Assembly (NCBI GenBank): GCA_947184155.2
Contig: CAMXCT020006445.1
Span: 1,016,723-1,080,722 of the forward strand
Source of the DNA: Cladocopium goreaui
Lineage: Eukaryota > Sar > Dinophyceae > Suessiales > Symbiodiniaceae
Reading direction: 5' to 3'
Length of the DNA: 64,000 nt
Below are positions 14,727-32,842 of this stretch, piece by piece. Positions within the stretch are counted from its first letter, which is position 1. The number at the start of each line of letters is the position of its first letter. A program made the position numbers and the translations under genes. A model generated the notes under the pieces. That model saw nothing but the letters and a program-made list of their open reading frames with translations, was not told the origin of the DNA and did no database searches.

Positions 14727-15953
14727 ATGGCCCCTGTTGTGATTGGAAGGTTGAGAAGTTGCCTCACGCCATGCTCATTCCTGGGATTCAGGATCGTTTT
14801 TCGACAACTGTCGAGTGAAGCAACTCAAAGATCCAGCGCTGAAAAATACTGGCAAGTCAGCTCACATGGCCGATGCTGTGACACAAGAGGACAAATCAAG
14901 TTGGGGCATTTGAAGGCTGATGGCTATGCCCAGGTGAACATTTTGGGTCACTTCTTCCGAGTCCATCGTTTGGTAGCATTTGCTTTTTTTGGCCCACCCC
15001 CGAGCAAAGACGCCTGGCAAGTGCACCATAGAGATGGGGACCGATCAAACAACCATATGAAAAACTTGGAGTATGTCACATGCAGCCAAAATGTTCGCTT
15101 TTCTTTTTTAAACCCTTCCAGAACCGGGTCCGGTCCAGCGCAATCCAAGCCAGTCATGTGTCGACCGATAGGGTGCGAAACTTGGACCACCTACTCATCG
15201 GTCACACAAGCAGCACAAACACTTCAATTGTCCATTGGAACGGTGTCCAAATGCTGCAGGGATGAATGTCCAGCCAAAGGTTTGGAGTTCCGCTTTCGAA
15301 AGTCAGCTGACCACAACCTGGAAGGAGAGGAGTGGCGGCCAATGCTGGATCCGGAATCAGGTGTTGAGGTACCTGGAAGGATGGTCAGTTCACTTGGCCG
15401 AATCAAGTCAAGGAGTGGGGTGGTTCACAGAGGCCATCTTTCCAAGCAGGGATACTATGAAACGAAAATCATTGCAGATCCAGTTGCAAAAGGACAACTT
15501 GTTCATCGCTTGGTTGCAATTGCTTTTCTGGGCTATCCCCGTAGTGAGAGGCACATTCAGGTAAATCACAAAGACGGAAATAAAGGTAATAATGCAGTTG
15601 TAAATTTGGAGTACGTAACTGCATCTGAGAATGCAATCCATCGCTCTAGAATGGTGCAAAGCAACTCCGAGAGAAAGGGTGGCATGTCGCCTCTCGCAAA
15701 GCCGGTTTGGAGCAGAGAATTTGGAAGTACTCATGAATGGACGTGGCACCCATCCATGACACAAGCAGCAGATGCGTTGGGCGTACGGTTGGGGAATATA
15801 TCAGCATGCTCTCGAGGGCTCCAGAGACAGACAGGAGGCTTCGAGTTTCACCTTGCAGATGCAGAAGTTGTATCCAAACTGATTCCAGGTGAAGAATGGC
15901 GGAAGGTGGACCTGCCATTGCTTCTGCAAGAGAAGTGGCTCAGATCGAGCTGA
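14727..15953 (+). CDS. tandem NUMOD4-HNH-NUMOD1 protein 1, likely mitochondrial
   Basis: Intronless, 408 residues. Residues 1-38 are basic and non-acidic until the FRQLSSE motif at 25-31, typical of a mitochondrial presequence. Two modules follow. Module 1: NUMOD4-like YWQVSSHGR (41-75), HNH_3-like domain 79-126 with VHHRDGDRSNN, NUMOD1-like helix-turn-helix 155-190. Module 2: EEWRPM...VSSLGR (201-250), HNH 259-306 with VNHKDGNKGNN and NLEYVTASENAIH, NUMOD1-like 342-376. Module 1 lacks the last conserved His (QNVRFSF instead of ENxxH), so only module 2 looks catalytically complete. HNH/NUMOD proteins are best known as phage and organelle homing endonucleases; NUMOD regions bind DNA. The protein ends with GEEWRKVDL, resembling the start of a third module. 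Paralogues lie at 28279 and 31631. Confidence 0.85.
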   Translation: MAPVVIGRLRSCLTPCSFLGFRIVFRQLSSEATQRSSAEKYWQVSSHGRCCDTRGQIKLGHLKADGYAQVNILGHFFRVHRLVAFAFFGPPPSKDAWQVHHRDGDRSNNHMKNLEYVTCSQNVRFSFLNPSRTGSGPAQSKPVMCRPIGCETWTTYSSVTQAAQTLQLSIGTVSKCCRDECPAKGLEFRFRKSADHNLEGEEWRPMLDPESGVEVPGRMVSSLGRIKSRSGVVHRGHLSKQGYYETKIIADPVAKGQLVHRLVAIAFLGYPRSERHIQVNHKDGNKGNNAVVNLEYVTASENAIHRSRMVQSNSERKGGMSPLAKPVWSREFGSTHEWTWHPSMTQAADALGVRLGNISACSRGLQRQTGGFEFHLADAEVVSKLIPGEEWRKVDLPLLLQEKWLRSS

Positions 15954-16710
15954 CTGGGAAGAATTTCCTGCCCAGGTGGTAATGCCTGGTGACCATCCGG
16001 CCTCCTGGCCCTCGGGTGAAGTGGCCGAAGTCAGACGCTTTGGCAAGAGGGCACCGCCGATCCTTTCAGATTGAGGCCAACTTTATTTAAAGAATGTTTT
16101 GGGCCGAGTTGGCGCCGTGACCTGAAAGCCTGTTGCTATCCCTGTGTGGGTAAGCAGTAAGCTTGCAAAAATGTGCGCTGAACAATGCAGACATGGGACA
16201 TTGGCAACGGGTTTTTGGAATCTTGGGGCGGATTTAGTTTATGGATATTTATGGCATTTTATGGCTTTGAGGATTTGCGGACGGGAAGCTGCAGATAAAG
16301 CAGCAAAGGTGCTACAGGTTCTACAATAGTCATGGTGCAAACCCGCTGGAACGGCTGCAAGTTGGTATTTCGTTGTAGGAGACGAATGTGTCCTCACCTC
16401 AAGGCCCATGGATCAACATACTGTAGGCGAGACAAAACAACTAAAATCAAGCATATGATCCAGGCAGTACAATCGCCCCCATACAACCTTGTTGTTCATG
16501 TTCTCCCGGATTACCTTAAGCAAAATGCAACAAACAGAAACATTGACATTTATGTGAACTCTCATTGCAAAGATTGATTTTCAACGTCCTGCAACACAAA
16601 GAAAGAAAAAATGCTAACTGAAGATGTGAGGTTTTCCATCAGGTTCCCATCCGTTCCTGGTCCGTTCCCCCTCTTTTGAAGCACCACTGCCCCACCCACG
16701 TCCCACCCAG

Positions 16711-17885
16711 ACCTTTCCTGGACGCCAACGGCGCCTTGACGAGTTCCGTCTCCGCGAGCCTGAGCTCGGGGGAGGTGGAGCAACGGCAGGTGGGGTCCCT
16801 GGGACGATGTGTTGCACAGTGATTTGTTTGATTTTATATGTTTGGTTGATTGTCTTGCTTTTCACCCTCACACTTTTGTTTAAGATAAAATTAATTTGTT
16901 TTTTTGTTGTACTTAATTTGGTTGCTTATTGGCCCGTGCATTTGGACCCACCTGCCTCACCCACCTTAGCTTCCTTCCTTTTTGGTTCTACAGGCGGCAC
17001 CCAGAGGTGGGCAGAGGCTGAATCTGGAGAAGGAGATTGGTAGTTTCAACGTTCTGGAGCTCAGCAGGGAAGAGAACGTGCCCAAGTGCTGGATCCAATG
17101 TTTGGAACACTGGAAAATCATCACTTGGTTGATGGTAAGATAATCAAGAGAAATTAAAGATAAATCGGAACATGAGGAGATCCTAATTAGGACTCACATC
17201 ATCCTTACCAAACAACATGAACCGACATTTGTCATTTATCATTACTAGTTTGATCATCAACTATATAACCTTTGATATCAAGAGCATTCAAAGCTAAGTT
17301 ATTAAACACTATATAACTAGGTAACCCCAAATCCCATCCAGAATCTGAACATCAAACATATTATCCCAACTTAAATTTAGCACAACTATAGCAGCTACCC
17401 CAAAAAACCTTCCGTGGAAAACCTGTTTCCCCAAAGGTGAGCTTAGACTTCGTCAAGGGCATTCAGACCGCCAAGCTCCCCATCAGCGTCACCTTGGATG
17501 GCACGGGGCCCAGGTGATCTGTACGGACCCAAGTCATGGATGGTGCTGGTTAGATTGTTATTTAAGGGAGTTTACCAATTTATATTGAGTGGATAGACCA
17601 TACATAGACACAATCAAAATATAGATCTGACAATTTACGAGTTTATATATTTTTACATTATAGATCTGAATGTGTCCAAAAATAGTGTCAAACGAATTGA
17701 TCAGGTGGATAGACCATACATCGTGGATGATGTGGGAGATAGTGTTTGGACCACAGACTATTCTATATGAGTTGAACATGTTCTCGATGGGTTGCAGTCC
17801 ACAAAAACTTGTAGAAGAAACTTCAAATGTGCCGTTGCTCATGAAATTTATGGAACCCGCAAATTCGCAGACATCCTGCTTTTAG
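16711..17885 (+). CDS. unrecognised gene, last four exons
   Basis: Four exons agree in phase: 16711-16789, 16994-17134, 17437-17513 and 17798-17885, the last ending in TAG. Donors are GTGGGG, GTAAGA and GTGATC; acceptors are CCCAG, CTACAG, CCAAAG and TTGCAG. Recognisable stretches are FLDANGALTSSVSASLSSGE, LNLEKEIGSFNVLELSREEN, LDFVKGIQTAKLPISVTLDG and VPLLMKFMEPANSQ. I recognise no domain. In the last exon a second frame is also open and ends at a possible donor (TTTTA then GTGAAA), so the gene might continue instead of stopping at 17885. Upstream exons were not identified; HNH gene 1 ends 760 bp before. Confidence 0.5.
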
Positions 17886-19032
17886 TGAAAGCTTTGAATT
17901 GGTAGGAGTCATCATTCTTCGGACTATGATATGTATGCTGTATGCTTAATTTAATCCTTTTCATAATTCCACCAGTGTTGGGAAAACGTTTCTATATTAT
18001 AGCTTTTTTTCCGTTAGTTTCAGCAGATCATGCAGTTCATGCACTTTTTTGGCCCTCTTTTGCTAAATCATGCTTTATGTACTATAGTTGATAACGAGGT
18101 TCCAAAACCCTATACCAACGCCAAAGCCACCACGATATCTCCTTCAACTCGTGCCATCAGCAGCCCAGCGAGGTACCCAGCAGGTGGTCAGCGAGGTGAA
18201 GGGGGCCCGCAGATATTGGAGGGTAGTGACATATAATGACAGGTGCTCAGAGAAATCTATAGGCAACACGGCGGAAAAATATGCACCGGACAGATCAAAG
18301 TTAAGTAACTTCAACAACTTCAAATGAGGAAAATGTGAAAGCACTTTAGGGATCTATAGGGCAGATGAATGCCAGCAATGCGAGAAATACGTGATGCATC
18401 AGACTGGCATGTCCACTTTTTCTATTGCATTGTTATACCCGGCATGGTGCATACAATTCCACCATATGTTAATCCAAACGGTTTTTGGGGCGTTTGTCAT
18501 GTTTATATAATAGATGATCAATTAATATCATATTTTATCGCAGTCGCCACTTGCCCACATTTCACCAGGCTCAGCCCATTGCAACTTGACATGAACCAAT
18601 ATCCATCCATGCACGATGCTGCGGCACCCATGTGGTAGGCCAGAATCTGCTTGGGCCCTCTGTTGCTGGCGGGAAGCCCAGCCTTGAGCCCCGAGACCTA
18701 TCGACCCGGTGAACCTGCCAGGTGGAGTTGAGACTCGGGGGTTGGCAGGGCCAGGGTTGGGAAGACCAGGGGAGGGTTTAAGCTTTCTTTTTGGAGCAAA
18801 TAATGTGCTGGAATTGAAAGCCGCAATTTTTCACTTCGATATCTCCAATGATCTCCAATGAGTTGCTGGAACAACAATGGATTGTAAAGCAAGCTGCAAT
18901 TTGAAGGACACAACTCTTGCTATGCAAAAACATAACAAAAGCCATCCGCACCACATCATATTCCAACATATTCCGACCATTCAACATTCTTCAGCCACAG
19001 CCCTATTATATACCCAGCCACCTGCCAGCCAG

Positions 19033-19139
19033 GTCCAAACGCTTGCGCCCCACCCACAGCGTGTCGGCCACCTTCACAGAATCGGTGGGCGTCCGGAAGC
19101 CCCAACTGGGCGCGTCAGGGGGAGCAATTTTTGATGATG
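19033..19139 (+). CDS. candidate internal exon
   Basis: After GCCAG the frame encodes SKRLRPTHSVSATFTESVGV and a glycine-rich end, closing near a GTTCAG donor. Composition is protein-like and GC is higher than in the flanks. No family is recognised. Confidence 0.35.
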
Positions 19140-19414
19140 GTTCAGGGGGAAATTGTTGAAGGACATGTTTAGAATAAATTTCTGAGGTGGGTTGAGTTTT
19201 GTTTTGTTTTTTGTTCATGATTCATGGGGTTTAACATGTTTGCCGTTGAAGATGCTGTTTTTTGACGTGCCATTTCTCAACTACCGCTTGGCTTTTTGAA
19301 GGCATGGCATGTCCATGTCCTGTGTGAACACAGGTCCAGCCATTGCAAATCTAAGGCCCATCAAATCTCAACTTTGTTTGTGTTGGTTTTGGTATCAAAC
19401 CTGCTATATTTTAG

Positions 19415-19533
19415 GATCTCAAGTAACATGGCCGGTGACAGCCATGACAACGGCCAAGATCGCTGGTCTCTACAGCTTGGAGGTCTTTGTGGGAAGCTCA
19501 GCCATTCTGTTGCTCCCCCCAGCCCCAACAGAT
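19415..19533 (+). CDS. candidate internal exon
   Basis: After TATTTTAG the frame contains TTAKIAGLYSLEVFVGSSAI followed by a Leu-Pro stretch, and reaches a GTCAAT donor. It could be a short membrane-proximal or hydrophobic core segment. No family is recognised, and its link to the exon at 19033 is not established. Confidence 0.35.
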
Positions 19534-20174
19534 GTCAATATATTCTGATTGCTGCTTGGAACGTATAGCTTTGTCTCAGCTTTGTCTCAAAATGGTGGAC
19601 ACGCCAGCATTGCATTTTATCATTTTTTTATGAGGAAAGAACGTGAGGTGACTGTTTTTTGGAAGGGTCAAATTACCATATTCTTGGACTACCCCCATCT
19701 AGTTATATAGGTTGTCCCACGCCACTGAGGTCATAACAGACAAGCCAATGCTGAGCCAGGAGATGCTTACGTTTCTCAGCTGGATGGGAAAATGTTGTGC
19801 TGCTTCAAATGTTTTTTGGGGAAATGGTGCGGGTGAAGGCACACAAACTGAGGATATCTTAGGATATGTCAGGATTTCTTAGGATCATTAGAGACTTGAT
19901 TGGCTTGTTGCATGAGGCACCTTGGAAAAGCATTGACAAGCGCTGTGGTCACCTGTGGTCGTTTGCCTATTTTTCTAAATAGAGAACTGCCATGTCAAAT
20001 GTCCAGCTATCTAGGGTTAGTCATGTGTATTAATCAGCGGGGTTGGTTCCAACCACTTTCTACTTCATCCATTTATATATATATATATATATATATATAC
20101 ATGCTTTCAGTTGCTATCATGCTCGGGCAAATCTTAGATCTTTAGTGACTGCCTGATATGACTGCAGAGTGAAG

Positions 20175-20309
20175 ATTCAAATCCTGGGAGATTATCAATC
20201 CCAACGGCGACAGCGGACTGAGGCGCTTGATGCCCGCGTGCTTCCGAGTAGAAATGGTGCGAGGCCTTCCGAATGAGTTGGAGGCTGAGAGGGAACGTCA
20301 GTGCACAGG
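20175..20309 (+). CDS. candidate internal exon
   Basis: The frame reads WEIINPNGDSGLRRLMPACF then RVEMVRGLPNELEAERERQC, compact and charged like a folded domain, and closes at a GTGTCA donor. An overlapping frame after GCAG is also open to a stop at about 20259, so frame choice rests on composition only. Confidence 0.35.
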
Positions 20310-20324
20310 GTGTCAGCACATTAC

Positions 20325-20446
20325 TTTTTATTCAAACCTACATACAGCACATGTATGTCACTGAGTGTACATGATAACATGACATGTTTTTTTTATTAAA
20401 ACCTACATACAGCACACGCACATCACTGAGTGTACATGATAACATG
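20325..20446. repeat. tandem duplication of about 57 bp
   Basis: Two copies (20325-20381 and 20389-20446) share ACCTACATACAGCACA and CACTGAGTGTACATGATAAC, differing at a few sites, separated by a short T-rich spacer. It is a local duplication with no coding content. Confidence 0.8.
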
Positions 20447-21205
20447 TGGTTTTATATCATCTATTCGTTTCTCATTGTGTCCTTTCATATTTGATCCAGC
20501 TTCCTTGGCCTAGATCCAAGGCTCTGACACTAGGCCCTAGGCCCTAGGTGTTGAGGAGTCCCAGGAGGTTGATGGCTCTCGCACTGAGGAAGTCCCTGCC
20601 AGACACCGCAAAGGAAGCGATGTCGGTTGTGGTCGCTGTTGGGGGTTTGGGTTGGAGGCTTGGACGTAGGTTTTTTTAAGCTTGTAATGCGGGCATAGTA
20701 ATACCATCCTGTACTACCCAACAGCAGGCTTACCACATAATTTGTTGTGAATGTAAGTAAGGGGGGTTGTAGATTGCAACTGCTATCCAACTGCTTGATC
20801 TTTTGTCAGCTGTCCATGTCAGACGCAAGGGTCGTGAACGTTTTCTCAGCAGATTTCTCTTTCAGTTGAGCCTCAGATGTCACACGGGTTTCTACACCTC
20901 ATTCTTATTATCCACAGGATGGCCATCCCATCAATGTCGAATGGGATCCCCCAATGTTGAGACCCCCCAATTTCCATACTGCTCAGGGGGTTCCTATGGG
21001 AGAGGTATTGGTCAGCCTGTGATTTGTCATTCAGATAGAATGAGATACAACTACTTTTGCAATCATTTAGCATTTCTTATTAGCCACCAATTGACATTCA
21101 AGAGACATTAATTATACAATTTGTTGTTCTTGACCAAATTTAAACTCAGAAAACTGAAACAACATTTTCACCAACAGAGAAACGTCAAGTTCTACCAATC
21201 TCCAG

Positions 21206-21331
21206 CTTTTCACGGATCAACCCTTGACCTCGCAGGAAGTCTTCGTGGAGGTCTACCCGAAGCTCAGCAGCTGCTCGGAGGCCTTGCGTCGGCAACTCAG
21301 GCGATGGATGGAGCCACGGATGGTTTCAGAT
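21206..21331 (+). CDS. candidate internal exon
   Basis: Forty-two codons in phase 0 between TCCAG and a GTGGGT donor. The peptide starts LFTDQPLTSQEVFVEVYPKL and continues SSCSEALRRQLRRWMEPRMV, an amphipathic, arginine-rich segment. No family is recognised. Confidence 0.4.
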
Positions 21332-22470
21332 GTGGGTCGAATTCGTTCAGATTGTAGATATGGTTTTCATATGTGTTGATTTGATTGGTGGTGTTTGCAT
21401 GTAAGTCAGGTGCAATCTGATAATCAGACCCGAACCATTTGAAGACACATTGAGCATCTGGCTTTGACGCTGAGCTGTCCCTGAGGTGAGACATGCCCCC
21501 GGATGCAATCAGAAAGAAGGTTCTGAAGGGCCAAGGGTTGTGGCAATCAGATGGGCGCTAGACATGATAGGACTAGAAGAAAATGAGTCAAGTTATGATC
21601 TGTGTTTTGTTTCAACAGTTTTCTTTACACACTATGCTGTAATAGGGTTTGAGTCATCACAGGCGTGATGCAAACAAATTATTTGTGTGCGGGGATGTTG
21701 CTGATGTTGCAATGCTTGTGGTCGTTGCAAGAGCTTTTGGACAGATATGTGATGAATTGTGATGATATGTCCCATAGGATCCATGTATGCTATATATATG
21801 GTAACATTTACCATCAATACCCCAAATGTTAGCATATATACCATACATGGATCCTATGGGTGTATACACCAATTTCCGGTGTATTGATGTCAATTCACTC
21901 CAAGAATCCTCTGCCCGAAGGCCGCACAATACATCAGCAGACTTCACGGATCCAGTCGTATGGCATGGCGCTCGGTTCTGGGAGTCATGCAATGCAGTTT
22001 AAAAACATTGCTCCCAACCAACGGGTCGTCATGCAAGACCAACCGGGTTGAAAAAATGCAAGGAAACACTGTGCTGGAAGCCAACAAGAATTGATATACT
22101 GTACCTGAGCCGCCTGCTTGCCCAGTACTCCCTCAGATTAATGGTGTTTTTTATTGTTGCCTGTAGCGTCATTCAGCACGATCGTTCCCACCTGAACCTT
22201 GTTAGAGTGGCTAGAAATGAAGGTCCCATCATACCCCATCTAAGCTTCGCCATTCCCATATATATATATATATTTCTTCTAAAGCTCTACAACCTTAGTG
22301 ACAGAAATCTACGATTAGCCTATCTTAGACTAGCATAGATTGCCATGCCCATATATCTACAAACTGTTGTTTTGAATCCCAATGTTTGTTGCTAGAGGTT
22401 GCTTTAAGTCATTTAGTGGCTTGGCATCTAAGGCAGCCATGAACCGTTTATCCCACCATGCCCCACCCAG

Positions 22471-22553
22471 GTTGCTGGGCTTCGCTCCACCACACGCCCT
22501 GCGCGAATGGCTACAGCATGAGGGGCTGGTCGTGGAGGCTGGCAAGTCGCCAC
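22471..22553 (+). CDS. candidate internal exon
   Basis: After CACCCAG the frame reads LLGFAPPHALREWLQHEGLV up to a GTGTGG donor. It resembles the exon at 33865-34053 (LLGLGPEDLRVWLEQHGLEM), so the two may be paralogous. No family is recognised. Confidence 0.35.
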
Positions 22554-22815
22554 GTGTGGGAAGTGGGTGGTACTTGTGATGTGGTTATTTCACTTGGCAA
22601 TATCGAACCATGGGGGTATAGATGTGGCATATCAAACCACAAGATATATGATTTTTTGTTTCATCATGTCGCTTCTCCTTGGTTCAAGGATGCGCAAGTG
22701 GTGTTCCACACGAGTAGCCAGACACCATGAAATTGGTATGTGACAATGTGGGTCCGTGAGTTGGGATTGTAGGTGGCTTTTACTTGTCACACCTTGATTG
22801 CTCTCACTGCAGCAG

Positions 22816-22945
22816 GTTTCTGACCAGCAGCTGGATGACCCTGTAGTGGTTTTGTTTGATGTCACTTCAGCATGGCAGGTGCACGATCGCGACCCCAAGG
22901 ACAAGGTGCGGGATGCATGTGTGGCGTTGGGTCACTTGAAACCCG
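22816..22945 (+). CDS. candidate internal exon
   Basis: The frame after AGCAG encodes DDPVVVLFDVTSAWQVHDRD then PKDKVRDACVALGHLKPG, ending at a strong GTATGT donor. A beta-strand-like VVVLFDV followed by charged loops suggests a globular enzyme or ATPase core, but no signature motif is complete. Confidence 0.45.
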
Positions 22946-23196
22946 GTATGTGTGGTCTTTTTTTATGTTTCATCATGGTTCCCACCAGTCACTTTATCAC
23001 TTTATAAACTATATAAACTATCAGCAGTGAGAAAAGGAGTGACTCCAAGTATAGCAACTCCAAATTTAGATAGAAACTCGGAAATCCGGAAAGTCTGAAG
23101 CAGATATCATCTACAACATCCTGGAAAGGGGCTTCTATGCTATCCTATCTTTTTGGGGGGTCCCGGCTTTATCCATGCGCTCGCCCTGCCGCCAAG

Positions 23197-23340
23197 GTTG
23201 TGCCAGGTGGTGAAACCATTGAGCGCAAGCCAATTCATCACCATGGTTGGGGTCTCAAACCTGAGGGTTTGGAAGTTGGGGAGTGGCTATCATTGCTTGC
23301 CCTATTGAAGACCCTACATATGGGACACCAAAACGCATAG
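23197..23340 (+). CDS. candidate terminal exon
   Basis: Open from a GCCAAG acceptor to TAG at 23338-23340. It contains PGGETIERKPIHHHGWGLKP and EVGEWLSLLALLKTLHMG. Its phase does not match the exon at 22816-22945 directly, so a missed exon or another gene is implied. Confidence 0.35.
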   Translation, partial: VVPGGETIERKPIHHHGWGLKPEGLEVGEWLSLLALLKTLHMGHQNA

Positions 23341-24303
23341 ATCTAGTACTGACAAAGGGATGTCTAAGGGTTATTTTACATTAGGATTAATTATTGGGGG
23401 GATGGATTTGTAGGGAAGACGCTTTGTTGTTGGTTGGATTGGTTGAGGGCTTGGCAAGATAAGCGTTTTTTACACCTGGTTTTGATGATGCGCCTCAAGA
23501 CTATGGAAGACAGAAAGAGTGCTCATGGTTGAAATAATCAGTCACAAAGTCCTGGAGAGTCTGAAGACTTTTTCGCCAACATGTTTAATACCCATTCTTA
23601 GAGACTTTGTTTGAAAGGACAATAGTTTGATGGCTGCTTGGTGTGGGGAATTCGTTGACGGGAGATATGCCTTGCTCTCACCAGGTGTGGCTCGCTTTCC
23701 CTTGGGGCCTCTACTGGAGTTGGAAGCTCTGAGTTTTCCTGGGATGACTTGGGAAGGACTTGGATGACCTAGGGATGGATGGTAAGGATAAGGACTGTAA
23801 GGAGTTCCAACGTCTCAACGGTCAATAAGACTTCAAGAGTGAATGAGACAGACTGAAAAATGTCAATGTTTTGCGACTTGCGGATTTTTGAACATGGTTG
23901 AAGCATGTGGGTTTATTTGTGCACCTTGTTGAATGGGAATGCCCAATCAAACCACCTGTTTTACAGCAAAAGAAGCGATAGAGTCAGAGCAAGCGCAGCA
24001 CTTCACCTGAAATTCATCGTGCAATCCTAAGCAACTCAGGCTGGAGACGTGCAGCCGGCTGCAGCTTAAGCCTTTCCATCGCTTGTGCTTTTGATGACCT
24101 GTTGACTTATTGAATGGATTTGGCTTAGGTGACCACTGCGACAAATTTGAATTTGAATCGTAAATTCATTGGCGATCAGCTTAGCACTATCCATTGAATA
24201 TGGTGTTGCAGGTTTAAGTTCTTGATGATTTAGCCAACATTTCTGGCTCATGCCACATGCCATTTTTGTTGAAGATCACCTTCCAATCCCCCATCATTGC
24301 CAG
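23341..24303. other. spacer without a supported gene
   Basis: Non-coding in appearance; open frames on both strands are short and lack splice context. Confidence 0.35.
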
Positions 24304-24731
24304 GTTGGAGTTAGCGTTGCGCTCCGACGTGTGTCCCTTCCGTGGAGACAAGAAGAAGCGACGGGTTCGGAGACCTCAGCAAAACGGAACGGAGTGGAGG
24401 CAGTCTTTTCAAGGTGGATGTGGTCAATTCAGGGCTGCCTCAAGAAAGGTATGATTGATGGTGATTGTTCATTTTTCGAGTTATTTATTCGTTGACTTAT
24501 GCTTCATCAAAACGATGCTTTCGAAGAGCCAAGAATATGATGTCCCTCAAGCAGTTCCTCGGTACCCCATTTGCTGAGGCCGAAGCTTTGAGTGCAGACC
24601 TCAGGTGGTCGTACTTTGCAAAGGGCCCAGGTGATGAGAACCTCCCAGAAGATCCCAGAAGCGTCGCATATCGCCCCCATACCAACCCCAATAGTGTTGA
24701 GAATTTGCGGGAAGCTTATGGGAGTAATTAG
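24304..24731 (+). CDS. unrecognised gene, last two exons
   Basis: Exon 24304-24448 (acceptor GCCAG, donor GTATGA) joins in phase to 24534-24731, which ends in TAG. The first carries a basic patch, FRGDKKKRRVRRPQQNG, that could bind nucleic acid or act as a nuclear signal. The second reads SLKQFLGTPFAEAEALSADL then RWSYFAKGPGDENLPEDPRS. No domain is recognised. The next gene candidate starts about 850 bp downstream on the same strand. Confidence 0.5.
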
Positions 24732-25577
24732 TGGATGTCCCTGAAAACAATCCAGCAACTCAGTTGCTTTCAGGGTGCTTCACCTCTGATGTTGATATAA
24801 CTAACATCCTTGGATGGCCCTGGATCAAGTGGATAGCGAGACATCATGCCTAAGATCTTTCAGTTGGAGAAGTGTTGATATCTCTGAGGTATAGATAGCT
24901 TGCATGCCTCTGGACTTCTGGATGAAGAAGGCCGGGTTTATGTTGCAACAATCTGCAGCAGTCGGGCAGACAGTTGTCTTATGGTGAAGACTGAGACTAC
25001 AGGGGCGTTGTAGCCCATGGGTTTTAAATGCAGCATGTGTTTGCATTTTCAAAGTTATTTTGAGATGCCGAATTAATGGACCACAATTCCCTTCCTCATG
25101 TAGTGTCCATCCATCTCCCCCATGCGCGATTAGGACGCCAGAAGATGGCACGGCGAGAAGGCAGGAGAAAGCTGACAGATAGAAGTAACAGCGGATCAGG
25201 AAGGATTGGGTTCCCCATGCCATCCGAATCCATGTAGGGCCTATGTTTCCCTACATGTGTTTAGGGTAAGAGTGGTAACTGTAAGACAAGCTAAGGGCCA
25301 TACTTGTGTGATTTGGGTTTGTGATGGATTGTTTTTCCTGTCTGCACGGAGTTGCAATATATATATAGTCTAGTAGAGAGACACAGCTAAGACACTCAAA
25401 GTACCCATAAAATGTATATGTTAACATATTATTTTAACATAATGGTAACAGTACCCAGCATGTGTGTGTTGCCCCCAGACTCTTATGTTGGTGGCACCAG
25501 ACTTATTCAACGTGTGGGGTAACATGCCGAGTTTTGTAGGTAAGTGAAGTGTCCAGATAGGGATAACTTGGTTTCAG

Positions 25578-26333
25578 CGGTCCCCTCGAAATGAACAGCA
25601 ACCGGAGCTCGTTCAAGTTCTTCAAGCCATCATCGCCCTATGGTCCTGCATCTTGGAGGCCTTGACAAGCGAGAGGATACCACCGACTATCACTCTCTGG
25701 GCACTGTTTGTGACTCAGTCCGCTTTAAATATGTTTGGTGTGTTGGGACTGGCAGTGGCTAGTTCACATCATCAATGGCACTTCCAAATAACTAAGGGTC
25801 TTTGGCCTTTACTGTAGGGATTTCGGGACTGTGATTGTGAGACCTTTGGCCCTGAACCATCCTCGACCTCGCGAGTGATAATATGACATCTTTGGAAGAT
25901 AGTACTAGAACTTGTTCAATTTTTATCGTCCCAAAGTCAGTCTATCAGTGAGCTGCTGTCATTCTCCAAGGTGTGCACACTTCGAGCTGCTCTGGCAGTT
26001 CCAGTGCCCAAGTCTACCGGAATTGATGCATTCCTTCGCCTCTTGAGTAGAACAGGTGACCAGTATTTCATATGGAATTTGCCGTTTGCATGGATGCATT
26101 ATTAGTCGATGCTGGAGCGCGTGTTGTTTTTTTTATTGATCAAATTTTGGTCACCAAATGATAATCTTACTTTGTGCTTTCGGTCCTTGTTTTCCACTGT
26201 AGTCACCATTCATTGCCCCATAGCAATAGCCGGGCCGAGACATGTGCGGGAGGTACCAAAGCACCTTCAAATCCAGGAGGAAGAGGAGCAGGTGTTTGAA
26301 GAGCAGTTCAGCCTGTTTCATCAGAAACCATAA
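25578..26333 (+). CDS. unrecognised gene, last three exons
   Basis: Three exons agree in phase: 25578-25709 (donor GTGACT), 25941-26055 (donor GTGACC) and 26203-26333 ending in TAA. Stretches seen are PELVQVLQAIIALWSCILEA (a hydrophobic helix), LLSFSKVCTLRAALAVPVPK, TGIDAFLRLLSRTG and an acidic tail QIQEEEEQVFEEQFSLF. The helix-rich character suggests an alpha-helical scaffold, but I recognise no family. All three acceptors are preceded by pyrimidine-rich tracts. Confidence 0.55.
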
Positions 26334-27440
26334 CCCCACAGAGAATTGCGTCTTAGGTGTTTAGTGCCATGACAATGGGGGATTTGGGTCTTCCGAGGGG
26401 GGCCAACACCCCATTAAGCAGTAGCCAACCAGCGGAACTCATCGTTGGGTTTTGACCATTGCTAAGGAGTTGCTTTGTGGTTTGACCAGTGGTGTTTGTT
26501 TCATCCCATGACTGAGAAAGTGACCCCAACTGATTTTTGTGGAGGCTATCGGAGGCTATGCTATGCGGCAACCACCTAATTATGACATTATGATTGAACT
26601 TGTGTGTTTTATGGAGCCGGTGATTGCAAAACCACCTTGCTGACATTCTTTGACTCCTTCGTGCTGCAAACCTGTCCCCACAAACGGCCAAAGGAACTCT
26701 GGCCGATTGCGTAACCTTTTGTCATCTCAGTGAATTTCAATTTCCACGCCCAAAGATGGAATGATGATTCCACCACCAGCAATTCATTTCTCATGGTAGT
26801 GGCATGGTTTTTGTTGGTCACTGGTCAGTTGCCCAGCCACAGGTGCATCACAAACACTGGGAAACCACTGAGCATGCCGCCGGCGAGGGTCATGTCTTCT
26901 CCCCAGAGTCACAGGGTTGGAGTTTGAGCATTGATCAAATGTGTAGACCTTGGAGAATTGTATTCTACCGCGTGACTATTTTAGCAAAACACATGGAGGA
27001 ATGCACGATCCAGTCTTGGGTGAACAGGTTTGGGGGGGGCCAAACTTTCCCACTTCATGGTCTACAGTGTCTACAGAGTCTACTGAAACCAGGGGAAGCA
27101 GATGGGATCAACATGGATCAACAGATGAGTCGATGACACTGCAGGTGTTCACAGCCAAGAACCTGCGTTCTCAGCCATCGGTGGGATTCTCATTGGGTAC
27201 ATTTGGAAGGACCATGGACCATGGTGCTGTGCTGGAAAGGGCGAGACCAGAAACATGAGAACTTTCAGGGCATATGAAATACCATTCCAGGAAGTCAAGA
27301 GCTGAATTGGGTTGATAAGTAAGAAATAGTTTGCAGATATTGATTTCACATCTTATTTCCCGAAAAAGAACCGTGGAGTGATGTGGAGTGTAAACGTCTA
27401 GGCATGTCTAAACCAATGTAGGGATGGGTCAACACCTATT

Positions 27441-27623
27441 TTGATGTTCACCACGGTACTGGCCCAGTCTCCCTCGGCCTCACCGACGAAGTGGGCGCCG
27501 AAAGCGGAGCCGTGCCGCGCGAAGGTGGGTGACGCCCGGGGCCCTGGCAGCGACGGTGGTGGGCCTTTGGCGATGTACACAAGGGCAGAAGATGACAAGT
27601 TGAGACATGGTGAAATGTCTTGA
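27441..27623. other. GC-rich island, coding strand ambiguous
   Basis: At 27450-27560 GC content rises sharply. Plus reads SPTKWAPKAEPCRAK before a GTGGGT donor; minus reads ARHGSAFGAHFVGEAEGDWA. Both are protein-like, so an exon is likely but its strand is not decided. Confidence 0.3.
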
Positions 27624-28278
27624 CACCTCTTGAATCTTGAACCATGTTTTTGGATGTTTTTGGATGTTTTTGGCATTTTTTGATCTTGGGCTTGGGGTTT
27701 GCCCCAACTTCCAGCAATTATCTTGGGATGGATGGCGGGGTGGGCAGTGTCACCTGTTTAAGTAGAAATTGAAAGGGATGCTGTGGCTATTGTTCCCCAT
27801 GCATGTAAGGGAGGAAATGTCCCTTCAACGCCCCAGATCAACGAACACCCAACCCTACCAATTAAGGGGGTCTTTGATAGTTTGATCAAGGGAATCTTGG
27901 GCGGTCCCCAGGACATAGGTAACTTCCCAATTTCAGCCCTAATCTGGGTCCCAATCTGGGTCAATCAACAAGAACCACCACGCGTTTATTGCTTTTCTCA
28001 AACCATCTCGGGGAGGGGGTTCCCATCTCCAGGCTGTGGGGCCTTGGAGGCGCAATCAACAAGAGGCTGCTGAGGACATTGCATGTTGTAAGGGCAGTGG
28101 GTCATGGGTCCTGTTGAAGGGGAGAGGTGCTTTTAGAGTGTTTGTGTTGTTTCTGCTCGATGGCTTTGCTCAACTCGCAGGAAAAAATGTATCGGCTGAT
28201 CAAAGGCAACTTCAGCTCAGAAGTCATTTGCCAAATTTATATGTTATATTTTTTATATAGGACTAGTCTTTGATGTGA

Positions 28279-29493
28279 ATGGCATGCTGCCCGCGGAAGC
28301 GAGGACAATGGGTTTGTGTGGCCTGCGCTTTGCTATCGCTTTGTTGGTTTCATGCCCGGACTTTTGCAAAGCCTCCTCAAGTATCTGCGAAGCCTCGTCT
28401 ATGCTGGCAGGTTAGCAACTATGGGCGGTGTAAAAAAATGAGTGGCACGATTTCGCATGGTTGCCGGGCAGCATCTGGCTACCGCGTAGTGATGATAGAA
28501 CGGAAGGTCTACATGGTTCATCGCCTGGTTAAGTTTGCTTTTCACGGGCCTCCTCGGAATGACCAGGCATGGCAAGTGAACCATTTGGATGGCAACAAGT
28601 CGAACAATCACTTGGACAATTTACACTACGCAACCCCAAGTGAAAATTCGAAGCACTCCTTTGCCAGCGGATCGAGGCAATGTGGGGGTCTCAAACTGTC
28701 CATGCCAGTGATGTGGAGAGCTTTCGGGGTGTCAAGATGGACTACTAGCCCAGCCATTACAGCGGCAGCAAAATGTTTGGGTTTCAGCCGGCATACCGTT
28801 TCGAAGTGCTGTCACAAACAACGGTCAGCCAAAGGTATTGAGTTTCAGTTTGCACGTGAAACTTCAAGTCTGGGCTGTGCCGACCCTGAAGCCTGGAGGA
28901 CGATTCGCGACCCAAGGTCGGGAAATGTGTGTGGTGGCAGACAGGTAAGTTCCCTTGGTCGTTTGAGGTTGAGAGGTGGCCGGATTTCCAAAGGGTCAGA
29001 AACTGCAGAGGGATATTTTGTCACTTGCTTGCCTTGTTTGCAGCAAAGGCGTGTTTTTGTGCACCGTTTGGTCGCAGCAGCTTTCCTTGGAGACCCACCC
29101 AGCCCTGAGCGCACACACATCAATCACAAGGATGGGGATAAGCGAAACAACAATGTTGACAATCTCGAGTATGTGACGCCTGCAGAGAACAAAGCTCACT
29201 ACCACGCTAATGCAATTTGCCAGCGTGGCGGGTCCGATGTTAAGGCAGTTGAGAGCAGAGTCAGTGGCGGCGGCCGTGGCCGGTGGATCTGGCATCGTTC
29301 TATCAAAAAGGCGGCAGAAACGTTAGGCGTCGATTCTAGCAACATTTGCAAGAGCATCACCGGATGCCTTAGACAGACAGGCGGCTACGAGTTTAGATTG
29401 TCAGCCACCAATGCCGCAGAAGATCTTCCAGGTGAAGAGTGGCGGGATGTCAACCTCACCCTGCACCTCCGAGACAGAGCGGCGCGAAGATGA
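28279..29493 (+). CDS. tandem NUMOD4-HNH-NUMOD1 protein 2, with hydrophobic N-terminal signal
   Basis: Intronless, 404 residues, same architecture as the genes at 14727 and 31631. Unlike them it starts with a basic cap and a hydrophobic segment (WVCVACALLSLCWFHA, residues 11-26) followed by a basic, acid-free stretch: a signal peptide or anchor, and in this group a possible bipartite plastid signal. Module 1: WQVSNYGR at 43-50, HNH with VNHLDGNKSNN and NLHYATPSENSKH (about 80-126), NUMOD1-like 155-192. Module 2: EAWRTIRDP...VSSLGR (204-250), HNH with INHKDGDKRNN and NLEYVTPAENKAH (260-307), NUMOD1-like about 345-378. The conserved HNH residues are present in both modules, so it is the best candidate for an active nuclease. 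The C-terminus repeats the module start (PGEEWRDVNL). No spliced-leader remnant was clear upstream. Confidence 0.85.
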   Translation: MACCPRKRGQWVCVACALLSLCWFHARTFAKPPQVSAKPRLCWQVSNYGRCKKMSGTISHGCRAASGYRVVMIERKVYMVHRLVKFAFHGPPRNDQAWQVNHLDGNKSNNHLDNLHYATPSENSKHSFASGSRQCGGLKLSMPVMWRAFGVSRWTTSPAITAAAKCLGFSRHTVSKCCHKQRSAKGIEFQFARETSSLGCADPEAWRTIRDPRSGNVCGGRQVSSLGRLRLRGGRISKGSETAEGYFVTCLPCLQQRRVFVHRLVAAAFLGDPPSPERTHINHKDGDKRNNNVDNLEYVTPAENKAHYHANAICQRGGSDVKAVESRVSGGGRGRWIWHRSIKKAAETLGVDSSNICKSITGCLRQTGGYEFRLSATNAAEDLPGEEWRDVNLTLHLRDRAARR

Positions 29494-29899
29494 ACTCCGA
29501 AGTGATGTTGGGCAGTTCTTGGCTTCAAGATGGCGGAGAGTATGGTGCTGATCACATGGAGTGATGTTGTTTCTTGTAGTTCTTGTTTGGCACACTTGCC
29601 TCAAGGATCTGGTCGGCATGCTTTAGCCTTGTGCATATTCTGCTCAAAAACTGGAGGAAGAGATGTTTACTTTGTGCTTTGCCTTGCTCAAACAACTAAA
29701 TTTCCTAATTATGCAGCATGGCCTTCATGATCCCCTAGATTTTTCCTTTTCTGTCATACCAAACGCCCCAGCCCTTGGACTCAGCGCCTCCAATGTGCCT
29801 GGGTCCAAACTCCGGGGTTCCTTCGTGCATTTTGGGTAGATCCCCAACCATGAAGTTACACGACATAGAGGTTGCAAGATATGGAGATATTATCCGATG

Positions 29900-30469
29900 C
29901 TAAGTTGAAAAGGAAGAAGGCATCAGCAAAAATACATCTCCAGCAATATATTCTCCATTGCTGTTTGATACGCTTTCCCACCAGCATATTTGTGCAGCGG
30001 ATGTGTTCTGAACTGCCTTGATGCAAACATGTTTCCTATAGTCTTTCCACCCATCTTGACCCAAATATCCCACCAATTTGCCACTCTCAGGTTCCAAGCC
30101 ACCCACCACACCACAGAGACGCTTTGCATCCAGGACGAAGAAAAGTTGTTGGCGTCCGAGGACCTGGAGCACACGCAGGCTCTTGGGATGGATGTGGGGC
30201 CCTTGGTGGAAGCTGCCATGGTTGGAGGCGGAGTGAAGTAGCAAAAGCTGGAGGACAATGACAGAAGCCTCCAGAAGTATATACCGTGTTCGTTTTTGAT
30301 GGCAACTTTGGATTGCTTTAGGTGTATTGTTGGTGCTGGTTGTATGTATCAAGCTAGGAGTTGAAACAGAAGCATTTGGAATTTTAAACGGAACAAGAAA
30401 GACATCAGTCAATGAAATAACCATTTGCACAATGAGAAGAGCGCCTAGCCAACACATGTATTGAGACAC
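29900..30469 (-). CDS. possible minus-strand ORF, unrecognised
   Basis: A 189-codon open frame with a hydrophobic N-terminus (MCWLGALLIVQMVISLTDVF) and a compact C-terminal part containing LDAKRLCGVVGGLEPESGKL and VGYLGQDGWKDYRKHVC. The second part reads like real protein; the first could be chance. It sits between HNH genes 2 and 3 in opposite orientation. No family is recognised, and overlapping frames are open too. Confidence 0.3.
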   Translation of the reverse strand: MSQYMCWLGALLIVQMVISLTDVFLVPFKIPNASVSTPSLIHTTSTNNTPKAIQSCHQKRTRYILLEASVIVLQLLLLHSASNHGSFHQGPHIHPKSLRVLQVLGRQQLFFVLDAKRLCGVVGGLEPESGKLVGYLGQDGWKDYRKHVCIKAVQNTSAAQICWWESVSNSNGEYIAGDVFLLMPSSFST

Positions 30470-31587
30470 ACTGTTGAAATGGGAAACTGTTCAGTTGATA
30501 TTTCTTTTTGCCTTCAGCCCTCAGTTTCAAACAATGTGTCGCTTGGGTGAGGTTTGTCAGGCCCTTATTGCGGAGCTTCATGCATCAACCCCCACGTAGC
30601 ATGCCAATGAAACTCCCTGTTTACATGATTTTGTATGTATGTAGGCATCACCTTTCCATGATTCAACAACATCCCTGGCAAAGCTAGCAATACGGAATGA
30701 AGCTATATAGTCACTGAAGTTTTTTCCGATCCTTCCCACCCCTGCTCTATATGTTTCTACACTTGAACCACATGACCCCATGCAGTGTTCAGCAACGGTT
30801 ACATCTACGATATGCTTAGCATGTTTGTCCGACTTATGTTTAAGCAAATAAGGCTCCCACACAAATCTTTATTGGAGGCTTTGATTGGGGAGATGTTCGG
30901 AACCTAAATAAAAACCAAGACCAAGCATACAGTCCCTCGATATAGCTGGAAAGGTAAAAGTTGCTTGACAGCTCAACCTTTAGTCCGACACCTGTTCGGG
31001 CCAGGCTATCGCCCAAGAGTTGATAGATGCCCGGCACTTGGAAGGACCTGAATTTAATTAGTTTGCTATGGATTCACGCCTACTGGGGGTTAGTGGAAGA
31101 AATGTTGTTTCTTTTGTTCCGTTTCAATTTGGTTGCCTTGGGCTTGATGCACTTTGTGGAATTGAATGCGTTTGGAGTTTAAAGATCGTGAGTTGATCGG
31201 GCATGTTGGGACTGCAATTATGCTGTTGGTTGAGTTTTTGAGAGCTGATCTGTTTGGAACAAGCCGTGAGTACGCAGCAATATGTAGTGCAAATAGTGAT
31301 TGGGTCGAGGGTCACAACATGCAGAAGATGTTTGTTTGTCAGCTCCGTGTTTGGGTAATATTTTGTTTGTGTTGTGGAGCCTTCTTTTCCATCAGCGACC
31401 AAGGCCGCTCCGACTGGTGCGAGCAGTGGTGTGGATCTCAAACTGTGTTTCCAGCTGGTAGAGGGTAGCGGGTACCATTAAGATTTGTGCACGGATGTTT
31501 GAAATTTGATTGCATATCTCTATGGAATTGAACGCGCCACCCACAACATCCCACAACCATGTTTACATTCAAATAGAAAATTCAAGA
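30470..31587. other. spacer without a supported gene
   Basis: A plus frame at 31166-31468 contains MLLVEFLRADLFGTSREYA, somewhat protein-like, but no splice sites or family support it. The remainder looks non-coding. Confidence 0.3.
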
Positions 31588-31600
31588 TGCCAGGCTCAAG
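31588..31600 (+). promoter_or_regulatory. possible relict spliced-leader sequence upstream of HNH gene 3
   Basis: TGCCAGGCTCAAG matches the leader's GCCA and GGCTCAAG with TTTT deleted. It ends 30 bases before the ATG at 31631, a position comparable to the match upstream of HNH gene 1. Alone it is weak. Confidence 0.3.
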
Positions 31601-31630
31601 AGCTTCTTCAGGGGTGTATATAATGTTGCA

Positions 31631-32842
31631 ATGGCCACTGTTATCTTGTCAGCATGGCACCGAACTGCTGGTCTTCACTTTGTAGAAAAGGCATGTATGT
31701 TTAGGTGCCTGTCCAGCGAAGTGCGGCAAACATTGAGACTACATGGCAAGCGCTGGCAAGTGAGTTCTGAGGGGCGGTTGTGCAATACTAGGGGTCAAAT
31801 CTCCTATGGAACTTTGCATGCATCTGGCTATCGAACTGTGCATATCAATGGGCAGAATTTCATGGTCCATCGTTTGGTCAAGTTCGGCTTTCACGGCCCA
31901 CCCCCTCATGAGCTTGTTTGGCAGGTGCACCACATAGACCGCAACGCGTCCAACAATCGCCTTCACAACTTGGAATATGTCACACCCAAGGAAAATATGC
32001 AGCAGACTTTCCAAAATCCGATGAGATGCTGCAGTGGGCCGAAGAACTCAAAGCCGGTGATGTGGAGAGCGGCTGGGTCTCAAAGCTGGACACACTGTGA
32101 ATCGGTGACGGTGGCAGCGAAACAACTTGGGATGCACAGCACTACAGTTTCCAGGTCCTGCCGCAATGGTTCCTTGGCAAAAGGGTTCGAGATGCGCTTT
32201 GCAGAGCCAGGAAACGCAGAGCAACAAGCTGTGGAAGAGTGGAAGCCGATGAAGAACCCAAGAACTCGGGTGGCTGCTCCAGATAGAATGGTAAGCTCTT
32301 TGGGTCGGTTGAAGCTGCGAAATGGTCGAATTTCTGGAGGGCACCTGACGGCTCAGGGTTATGTTGTGACCAATTTGTCAGATTGTGGCAGTACAAGTTA
32401 TACATACCTTCACCGTCTTGTGGCAGCTGCCTTCCTCCCAGAACCACTAACTCAACAGCACACACAGGTGAATCACAAAGATGGAGACAAGCGTAACAAT
32501 AGGGTTGAAAACTTGGAGTACGTTACACCAGCGGAGAACATAAAACACCGTTTTGCCAAGGCAGGGACACCTGCCCACAAGTCAGCCGCAAAACCAGTTG
32601 AGAGCAGACCGTGTGACAGCACTTGCAATTGGAGATTGCACGCGTCCATCTCAGCTGCAGCTAACCAGCTCCACGTTAACCCTGGCGGAATTTCCCGATG
32701 CATTCGTGGGAAGTACAAACATGCAGGTGGATATGAGTTCAGGTTGGCAGTTCCACTTCCACAAGCACTCCCTGGTGAAGAATGGCGTGAGGTTGACATT
32801 GATGCACACATCAAGGACAAGGTCTCCAGATGCTCTTGGTGA
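31631..32842 (+). CDS. tandem NUMOD4-HNH-NUMOD1 protein 3, likely mitochondrial
   Basis: Intronless, 403 residues. The N-terminus is basic with FRCLSSE at 24-30, echoing FRQLSSE of protein 1 and resembling a mitochondrial processing site. Module 1: WQVSSEGR (42-49), HNH about 79-126 with VHHIDRNASNN and NLEYVTPKENMQQ, NUMOD1-like 155-191. Module 2: EEWKPMKNP...VSSLGR (202-250), HNH 260-307 with VNHKDGDKRNN and NLEYVTPAENIKH, NUMOD1-like near 340-375. Module 1 has Gln for the last His and Arg for the loop Gly, so it is probably degenerate while module 2 is intact, as in protein 1. The C-terminus ends in PGEEWREVDI. It lies 2.1 kb downstream of gene 2 on the same strand. Confidence 0.85.
   Translation: MATVILSAWHRTAGLHFVEKACMFRCLSSEVRQTLRLHGKRWQVSSEGRLCNTRGQISYGTLHASGYRTVHINGQNFMVHRLVKFGFHGPPPHELVWQVHHIDRNASNNRLHNLEYVTPKENMQQTFQNPMRCCSGPKNSKPVMWRAAGSQSWTHCESVTVAAKQLGMHSTTVSRSCRNGSLAKGFEMRFAEPGNAEQQAVEEWKPMKNPRTRVAAPDRMVSSLGRLKLRNGRISGGHLTAQGYVVTNLSDCGSTSYTYLHRLVAAAFLPEPLTQQHTQVNHKDGDKRNNRVENLEYVTPAENIKHRFAKAGTPAHKSAAKPVESRPCDSTCNWRLHASISAAANQLHVNPGGISRCIRGKYKHAGGYEFRLAVPLPQALPGEEWREVDIDAHIKDKVSRCSW

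Follow-up and report, generated by a model that had tools for sequence, protein, structure and literature searches.

What is a phage-type nuclease doing, in doubled form, in the nuclear genome of a dinoflagellate? This question is raised by a 64-kb window of the Cladocopium goreaui assembly (C5848:1016723-1080722 of 1.17 Gb; positions below are window coordinates), in which three open reading frames (ORFs) of 408, 404, and 403 aa, all on the + strand and each open from ATG to stop, bear out an initial annotation that had described three single-exon paralogs on one strand. Our answer, which we offer tentatively and at a little below an even chance, is that these genes would encode domesticated, mitochondrion-directed, two-unit I-HmuI-type nucleases, and thus candidate cutters of mitochondrial DNA.

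To begin with the domain content, the Pfam profiles HNH_3 (79.1–83.9 bits against a cut-off of 24.8, with E-values of 1.9e-22 to 5.7e-24) and I-HmuI_NUMOD-like (PF22083; 47.1–50.6 bits against a cut-off of 27) each matched two stretches in all three proteins, and the sole PDB sequence match of a profile built from the three was the phage enzyme I-HmuI (PDB ID: 1u3e, E 1.3e-14). Because of this doubling and this single match, each protein half is, as judged from sequence, one I-HmuI-like unit. The doubled NUMOD4-HNH-NUMOD1 module of the initial annotation therefore stands with respect to HNH_3, but the two flanking labels are approximate, as NUMOD4 scored below its Pfam cut-off of 23.4 bits in the three proteins (18.5, 12.3, and 13.3 bits) and NUMOD1 below its cut-off of 22.8 bits in two of them (16 and 20.1 bits; it is not listed for the third). 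No NCBIfam family was matched by the three window proteins. The first of these, W14727 (14727–15953, + strand, 408 aa), comprises a presequence (14727–14849), unit 1 (from 14850; HNH_3 at 14958–15098, that is, C5848:1031680-1031820, 50.2 bits), unit 2 (from 15324; HNH_3 at 15498–15635, 44.3 bits), and a C-terminal GEEWR tail (15888–15950). Similarly arranged, W28279 (28279–29493, + strand, 404 aa) has a hydrophobic N-terminal signal (28279–28404), followed by unit 1 (from 28405; HNH_3 at 28510–28650, 42.9 bits), unit 2 (from 28885; HNH_3 at 29056–29193, 52.4 bits), and the tail (29431–29490), while W31631 (31631–32842, + strand, 403 aa) again shows a presequence (31631–31753), unit 1 (from 31754; HNH_3 at 31862–32002, 44.8 bits), unit 2 (from 32231; HNH_3 at 32405–32539, 45.2 bits), and the tail (32774–32839). 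The other two window proteins share 42% and 47% identity with W14727.

These three genes are paralogs, as had been proposed, but their number was an underestimate. A search of the genome with the 404-aa W28279 protein gave 18 matches at 17 loci, and 34 of the 37 matches to the HNH_3 profile (E ≤0.001) fell at the same 17 loci, exactly two per locus; such counts are lower bounds, and 17 loci are thus a minimum for the family. No single-unit or three-unit family copy was found among the HNH_3 matches at this threshold in the whole assembly. Fifteen of the 17 loci are intact and open from Met to stop, encoding proteins of 387–431 aa, and since the C324 and C1589 (near 1 kb) copies are 98.9% identical including their flanks, there are 14 distinct intact copies. 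Two copies are apparently decaying, namely one on C4961 with an in-frame TGA and one on C4999 (121 kb) whose coding sequence is divided between two frames. Four contigs hold several copies, and within each of these contigs the copies share a strand. When we compared the 15 intact copies with about 1–1.5 kb of flank each, and leaving aside overlaps of neighboring loci, long shared flanks were limited to two young pairs, C324/C1589 and C1595/C4961 (88% over 4.2 kb); elsewhere, the nucleotide similarity comprises the coding part and at most about 110 bases adjoining it upstream. Because the similarity is mostly confined to the coding part, the pattern fits gene duplication better than a recent mobile element. 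Moreover, single-exon genes are common in dinoflagellates (26.2% and 24.4% in two Polarella isolates, and less than 12% in Symbiodiniaceae; PMC7245778, cited from an excerpt, as are the other PMC papers below), and so the intronless state needs no special cause. Retroposition marked by spliced-leader relics was weak as a candidate, with p = 0.01 in two of 15 copies (W14727 and C3224) and p ≥0.19 in the other 13 (200 shuffles each). Of the remaining three HNH_3 matches, contig C1 holds two and C2724 the third, which lies in an unlike HNH ORF. At the C2724 locus (L050; C2724:290700-293800), a 171-codon ORF at 1333–1848 on the minus strand carries a different single HNH domain, and in contig C1 (7.38 Mb) the sampled stretches L001, L024, and L051 are densely packed with ORFs of bacterial or phage-like character, one of them for a NUMOD4 protein; this contig is probably an associated bacterium within the assembly.

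We then considered whether the units have kept what an HNH nuclease requires. The active site of I-HmuI we take to consist of His75, Asn87, and Asn96, with a metal ligand at position 74. When mapped onto this enzyme, the general-base His and the two Asn are present in both units of all 15 intact copies. With 23 of 155 columns invariant in unit 1 and 28 of 174 in unit 2, catalytic invariance such as that seen would arise by chance with a probability of 0.010 and 0.0006, respectively. HNH is the most conserved region, with a mean pairwise identity among 14 copies of 0.57 and 0.63, as against 0.38 and 0.42 for the helix-turn-helix (HTH). The reported pattern of the "last His" was reproduced, this residue being present in unit 1 only of W28279 among the window proteins and in unit 2 of all three, and family-wide in 15/15 second units versus 4/15 first units. 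Its reading as a degenerate first HNH was not, as I-HmuI itself has Asn at that position, and the absent His is thus no sign of decay. In HNH enzymes, the conserved His acts as the general base and is usually hydrogen-bonded to an Asn (PMC3943268).

Moreover, the family is maintained by purifying selection in its older pairs. Among the nine copy pairs examined by the Nei-Gojobori method, omega ranged from 0.19 to 0.34 in the five older pairs for which dS was finite (dS exceeded 2.5 in two of these), two further pairs were saturated, and C324/C1589 had no coding difference in the aligned codons. By module, pN/pS was 0.35–0.60 in both units of the seven older pairs, and higher in the presequence than in both units in five of the seven.

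As for where the proteins might act, the N-termini had been described as presequence-like in two window proteins (FRQLSSE and FRCLSSE) and hydrophobic in the third (W28279), and this is what we observed. Upstream of unit 1, the pattern R-x-[LMFYS]-S-[SANT] occurs in 11 of 15 copies (on average 0.40, and at most 3, in 2000 trials with shuffled presequences), and a stricter R-x-[LFYM]-[SA] in nine; the letters of this cleavage motif vary between copies (RCLSS, RPMSA, RNFSS, RGFST). Presequences contain 0–2 acidic and 4–7 basic residues, a charge comparable to that of the presequence of a dinoflagellate mitochondrial RNA polymerase, which is functional in yeast (PMC3686807). Such a mitochondrial-type motif is support for mitochondrial import, though not proof of it. 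The most hydrophobic N-termini of the 15 belong to W28279 and C986 (15-residue Kyte-Doolittle maxima of 2.04 and 1.97), and these leaders would fit an endoplasmic reticulum (ER) or plastid route, the plastid route of dinoflagellates requiring an ER signal (PMC3686807). As sister copies, W28279 and C986 have a support of 54/79, and their grouping is not resolved.

A further peculiarity lies at the other end of each protein. The NUMOD4-like strands of unit 2 start with GEEWR or a sequence close to it. This element is missing from unit 1, which begins at W-x-V-S-S or a variant; it recurs at the C-terminus, where GE-x-WR-x-[VI]-[DN] is found in 15/15 intact copies, with an Arg 14 positions past the R of WR. 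The tail had been noted in all three window proteins, and rightly so, but its interpretation as the decayed remnant of a longer repeat is not supported, given that GE-x-WR is kept throughout, that no locus has three HNH_3 matches, and that the modeled tail strand depends on unit 1. In the AlphaFold model of W28279 (mean predicted local distance difference test (pLDDT) score of 84.6; predicted template modeling score (pTM) of 0.47, with an unreliable relative placement of the units), the units are predicted to share the I-HmuI fold of N-terminal strands, HNH, and NUMOD1-like HTH, and the tail forms a strand (388–391) and a helix (393–403) with pLDDT blocks of 85, 90, and 82. When unit 2 and the tail were modeled alone, the tail strand was lost and the pLDDT of this block was 58. 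Since DSSP assigns a strand only where there is a partner, and unit 2 comes with a first strand of its own (206–210), we infer from these models that the open edge of unit 1 is occupied by the strand of the tail, which would close the chain into a single pseudo-dimer.

To trace the origin of the units, we used a tree of 28 family units (14 copies, the near-duplicate C1589_1k being left out) and 53 viral units, the latter being the unique ones of at least 110 model positions from 85 ORFs at 80 viral loci (the best 80 of at least 532 relatives), plus unit 1 of L112; bacterial and other eukaryotic units were left out, and the bootstrap was short of fully settled. First units formed one clade (100/96), second units another (100/94), and the two jointly a clade (100/96) apart from the 53 viral units. 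On account of these clades, the simplest history would be one acquisition, then one internal doubling, and then expansion, with a closer outside relative possible beyond the sampled viral units. The family groups with 12 viral units (95/83), but on long branches that point to no specific viral donor. Nor was a nearer cellular source obtained from a GTDB scan with two short peptide patterns, in which two of 48 stretches encoded a relative; both are single units over the stretch translated, and both were left out of the tree. Among phage records, 1709 of 50,697 had a match and six reached 80% query coverage; among the 30 rows listed, each high-coverage match consists of two pieces inside a span of about 0.6 kb, where one and the same unit has matched both halves of the query. 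Two-HNH ORFs do occur in viral contigs, one in L112 (286–1185) with two each of NUMOD4 and HNH_3, and another in L107 and its duplicate L108 (from 2554) with three NUMOD4 and two HNH_3, L107 ending in the start of the third NUMOD4.

The genomic surroundings are those of a nuclear region. Downstream of the three nuclease genes, exons of psbO (manganese-stabilizing protein, PF01716) cover at least 40937–42491 on the + strand in different frames, and hence this is an intron-bearing nuclear stretch, in line with the intron-rich setting first described, for which at least this one neighbor has introns. No Rfam match was found at the gathering threshold in the 64-kb window, and therefore no recognized group I intron; the nuclease ORFs are free-standing, with none in a self-splicing intron or intein by this test. 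Likewise, a Pfam scan of + strand frames around the genes gave no viral hallmark family among its matches at E ≤0.01. Upstream of the nuclease cluster, an 857-codon open frame at 3027–5600 (+ strand) that matches reverse transcriptase and RNase H resembles a long interspersed nuclear element. Elsewhere in the genome, peridinin-chlorophyll protein genes form tandem arrays in long open frames on contigs C360, C1913, C278, and others, and their profile gave 150 matches in this genome versus none in any of 14 control genomes, which marks the host as a peridinin dinoflagellate.

Taken together, phage-type paralogs that are doubled, under purifying selection, and mostly equipped with mitochondrial-type presequences agree with the initial suggestion of a domesticated, organelle-directed system. 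In the scenario that we propose, one phage-type unit (NUMOD4-like strands, HNH, and NUMOD1-like HTH) would have entered the dinoflagellate lineage, doubled in tandem inside one reading frame, gained an N-terminal targeting sequence, and then spread into at least 14 distinct intact copies, a course supported by the tree and the structure of the copies. Going by their N-termini, most members may be imported into mitochondria, with two re-addressed to a secretory or plastid route. Each unit, having kept its active-site residues, would nick one strand at its own half-site, and two tethered units, each with an HTH, could cut a long composite site in mitochondrial DNA by a paired nick or as a double-strand break, with the conserved GEEWR strand at the C-terminus perhaps supplying the first strand absent from unit 1, as the two models suggest. 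More speculatively, the cuts might help the fragmented mitochondrial genome to recombine, to rearrange, or to prime its replication. In dinoflagellates, the genomes of the organelles are strongly reduced and their genes fragmented and rearranged (PMC3686807). The fullest form of this idea, in which a phage nickase was turned into closed single-chain two-site cutters, each tied by a C-terminal strand swapped back onto the first unit, that go to the mitochondrion and create or maintain its fragmented, recombining genome, with members differing in their sites, seems to us distinctly unlikely. We know of no nuclear-encoded sequence-specific nuclease that has been named as a cause of organelle genome fragmentation in dinoflagellates. 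Were the mitochondrial nuclease reading true, it would provide a concrete candidate set of intact, selectively maintained, apparently mitochondrion-directed nucleases that can be tested on mitochondrial DNA, one of the few examples of an HNH unit of phage type that was doubled and then domesticated by the nucleus of a eukaryote, and possibly a natural scaffold for two nickases joined in one chain.

Several observations weigh against mitochondrial nucleases of this kind. Position 74, Asn in 15/15 second units, is His in 13 first units and Asn in two, whereas I-HmuI has Asp. The invariant catalytic residues could also be kept for the fold. In the young C1595/C4961 pair, omega is 0.61 and pN/pS in unit 1 is 1.01. 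The cleavage-motif pattern was set after the sequences had been seen, the copies are related, and four of the 15 lack it. As regards closure, the tail helix stays confident (pLDDT 85) without unit 1, and the inference draws on a DSSP and pLDDT summary, without coordinates, of one reported model per construct, with a pTM of 0.47 for W28279.

What else might the family be? The main rival, which we judge rather unlikely, is that these are organelle DNA-binding or nucleoid proteins whose HTH units bind mitochondrial DNA in an architectural or regulatory capacity, with cutting weak or lost. An imported HTH protein of Paulinella would be the precedent, but its 52 residues leave no room for an HNH, whereas both HNH sites keep their active-site residues in 15/15 copies here and are better conserved than the HTH. 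A structural role in the mitoribosome or with rRNA fragments, like that of ApiAP2 proteins in Toxoplasma (a related alga-free lineage, the apicomplexans, in which this genus has its mitochondrial rRNA in fragments), appears improbable. That the genes are still selfish, either homing genes or genes derived from a virus (polinton-like or giant) that recent insertions have scattered, is in our view quite improbable: although a NUMOD4-HNH_3-AP2 protein of a Symbiodinium polinton-like virus matches I-HmuI (PMC12220804), a giant-virus-like HNH endonuclease gene is reported from the dinoflagellate Heterocapsa circularisquama (PMC12721341), and viral contigs L112 and L107/L108 hold two-HNH ORFs, long flanks are shared only within C324/C1589 and C4961/C1595, the window scans returned neither Rfam nor, in the + strand frames, viral hallmark matches, and the old copies are doubled, carry presequences, and are under purifying selection. 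Highly improbable, finally, is that the family consists of secreted or plastid nucleases, with the hydrophobic leaders of W28279 and C986 being original and the mitochondrial-like ones misread. Their hydrophobic maxima are indeed the highest of the 15 and an ER signal is what the plastid route needs (PMC3686807), yet such a leader is found in just two of 15 copies, with the mitochondrial-type motif in 11, and the two do not group firmly (54/79).

Compared with known systems, two-HNH ORFs in viral contigs and an I-HmuI-type gene in a Symbiodinium polinton-like virus are already known, and we found no account, among the open-licence PMC papers listed, of a nuclear, targeted, expanded, and doubled family with a swapped tail. 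The polinton-like virus protein likewise places an I-HmuI-type HNH_3 with a NUMOD in a dinoflagellate genome, but it is virus-borne, has one HNH_3 and an AP2 domain, and is given no targeting signal in the excerpt (PMC12220804). The short chromatophore-targeted DNA-binding proteins of Paulinella (PDB ID: 8b6e) are also an expanded, nuclear, organelle-imported family with the same HTH fold; however, they are less than 90 aa long and lack an obvious targeting signal, according to the excerpt of PMC12176269, and the solved chain has 52 residues and an HTH only, whereas the present proteins have 387–431 aa and two HNH_3 each. In Toxoplasma, the mitoribosomal ApiAP2 proteins similarly show a family of DNA-binding type put to new use in the mitochondrion of an alveolate, though with AP2 domains, a structural role, and no nuclease site mentioned in the excerpt (PMC11742926). 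Monomeric LAGLIDADG homing endonucleases resemble the family in having two fused units per chain (PMC3943268), but their fold is unrelated and the family is not a member. Finally, the phage intron HNH nickase I-HmuI is like each family unit in sequence and modeled fold. In contrast to it, the Cladocopium proteins are encoded by nuclear genes with no intron found, and they combine targeting N-termini with two units per chain, the first of which lacks a first strand that recurs at the C-terminus.

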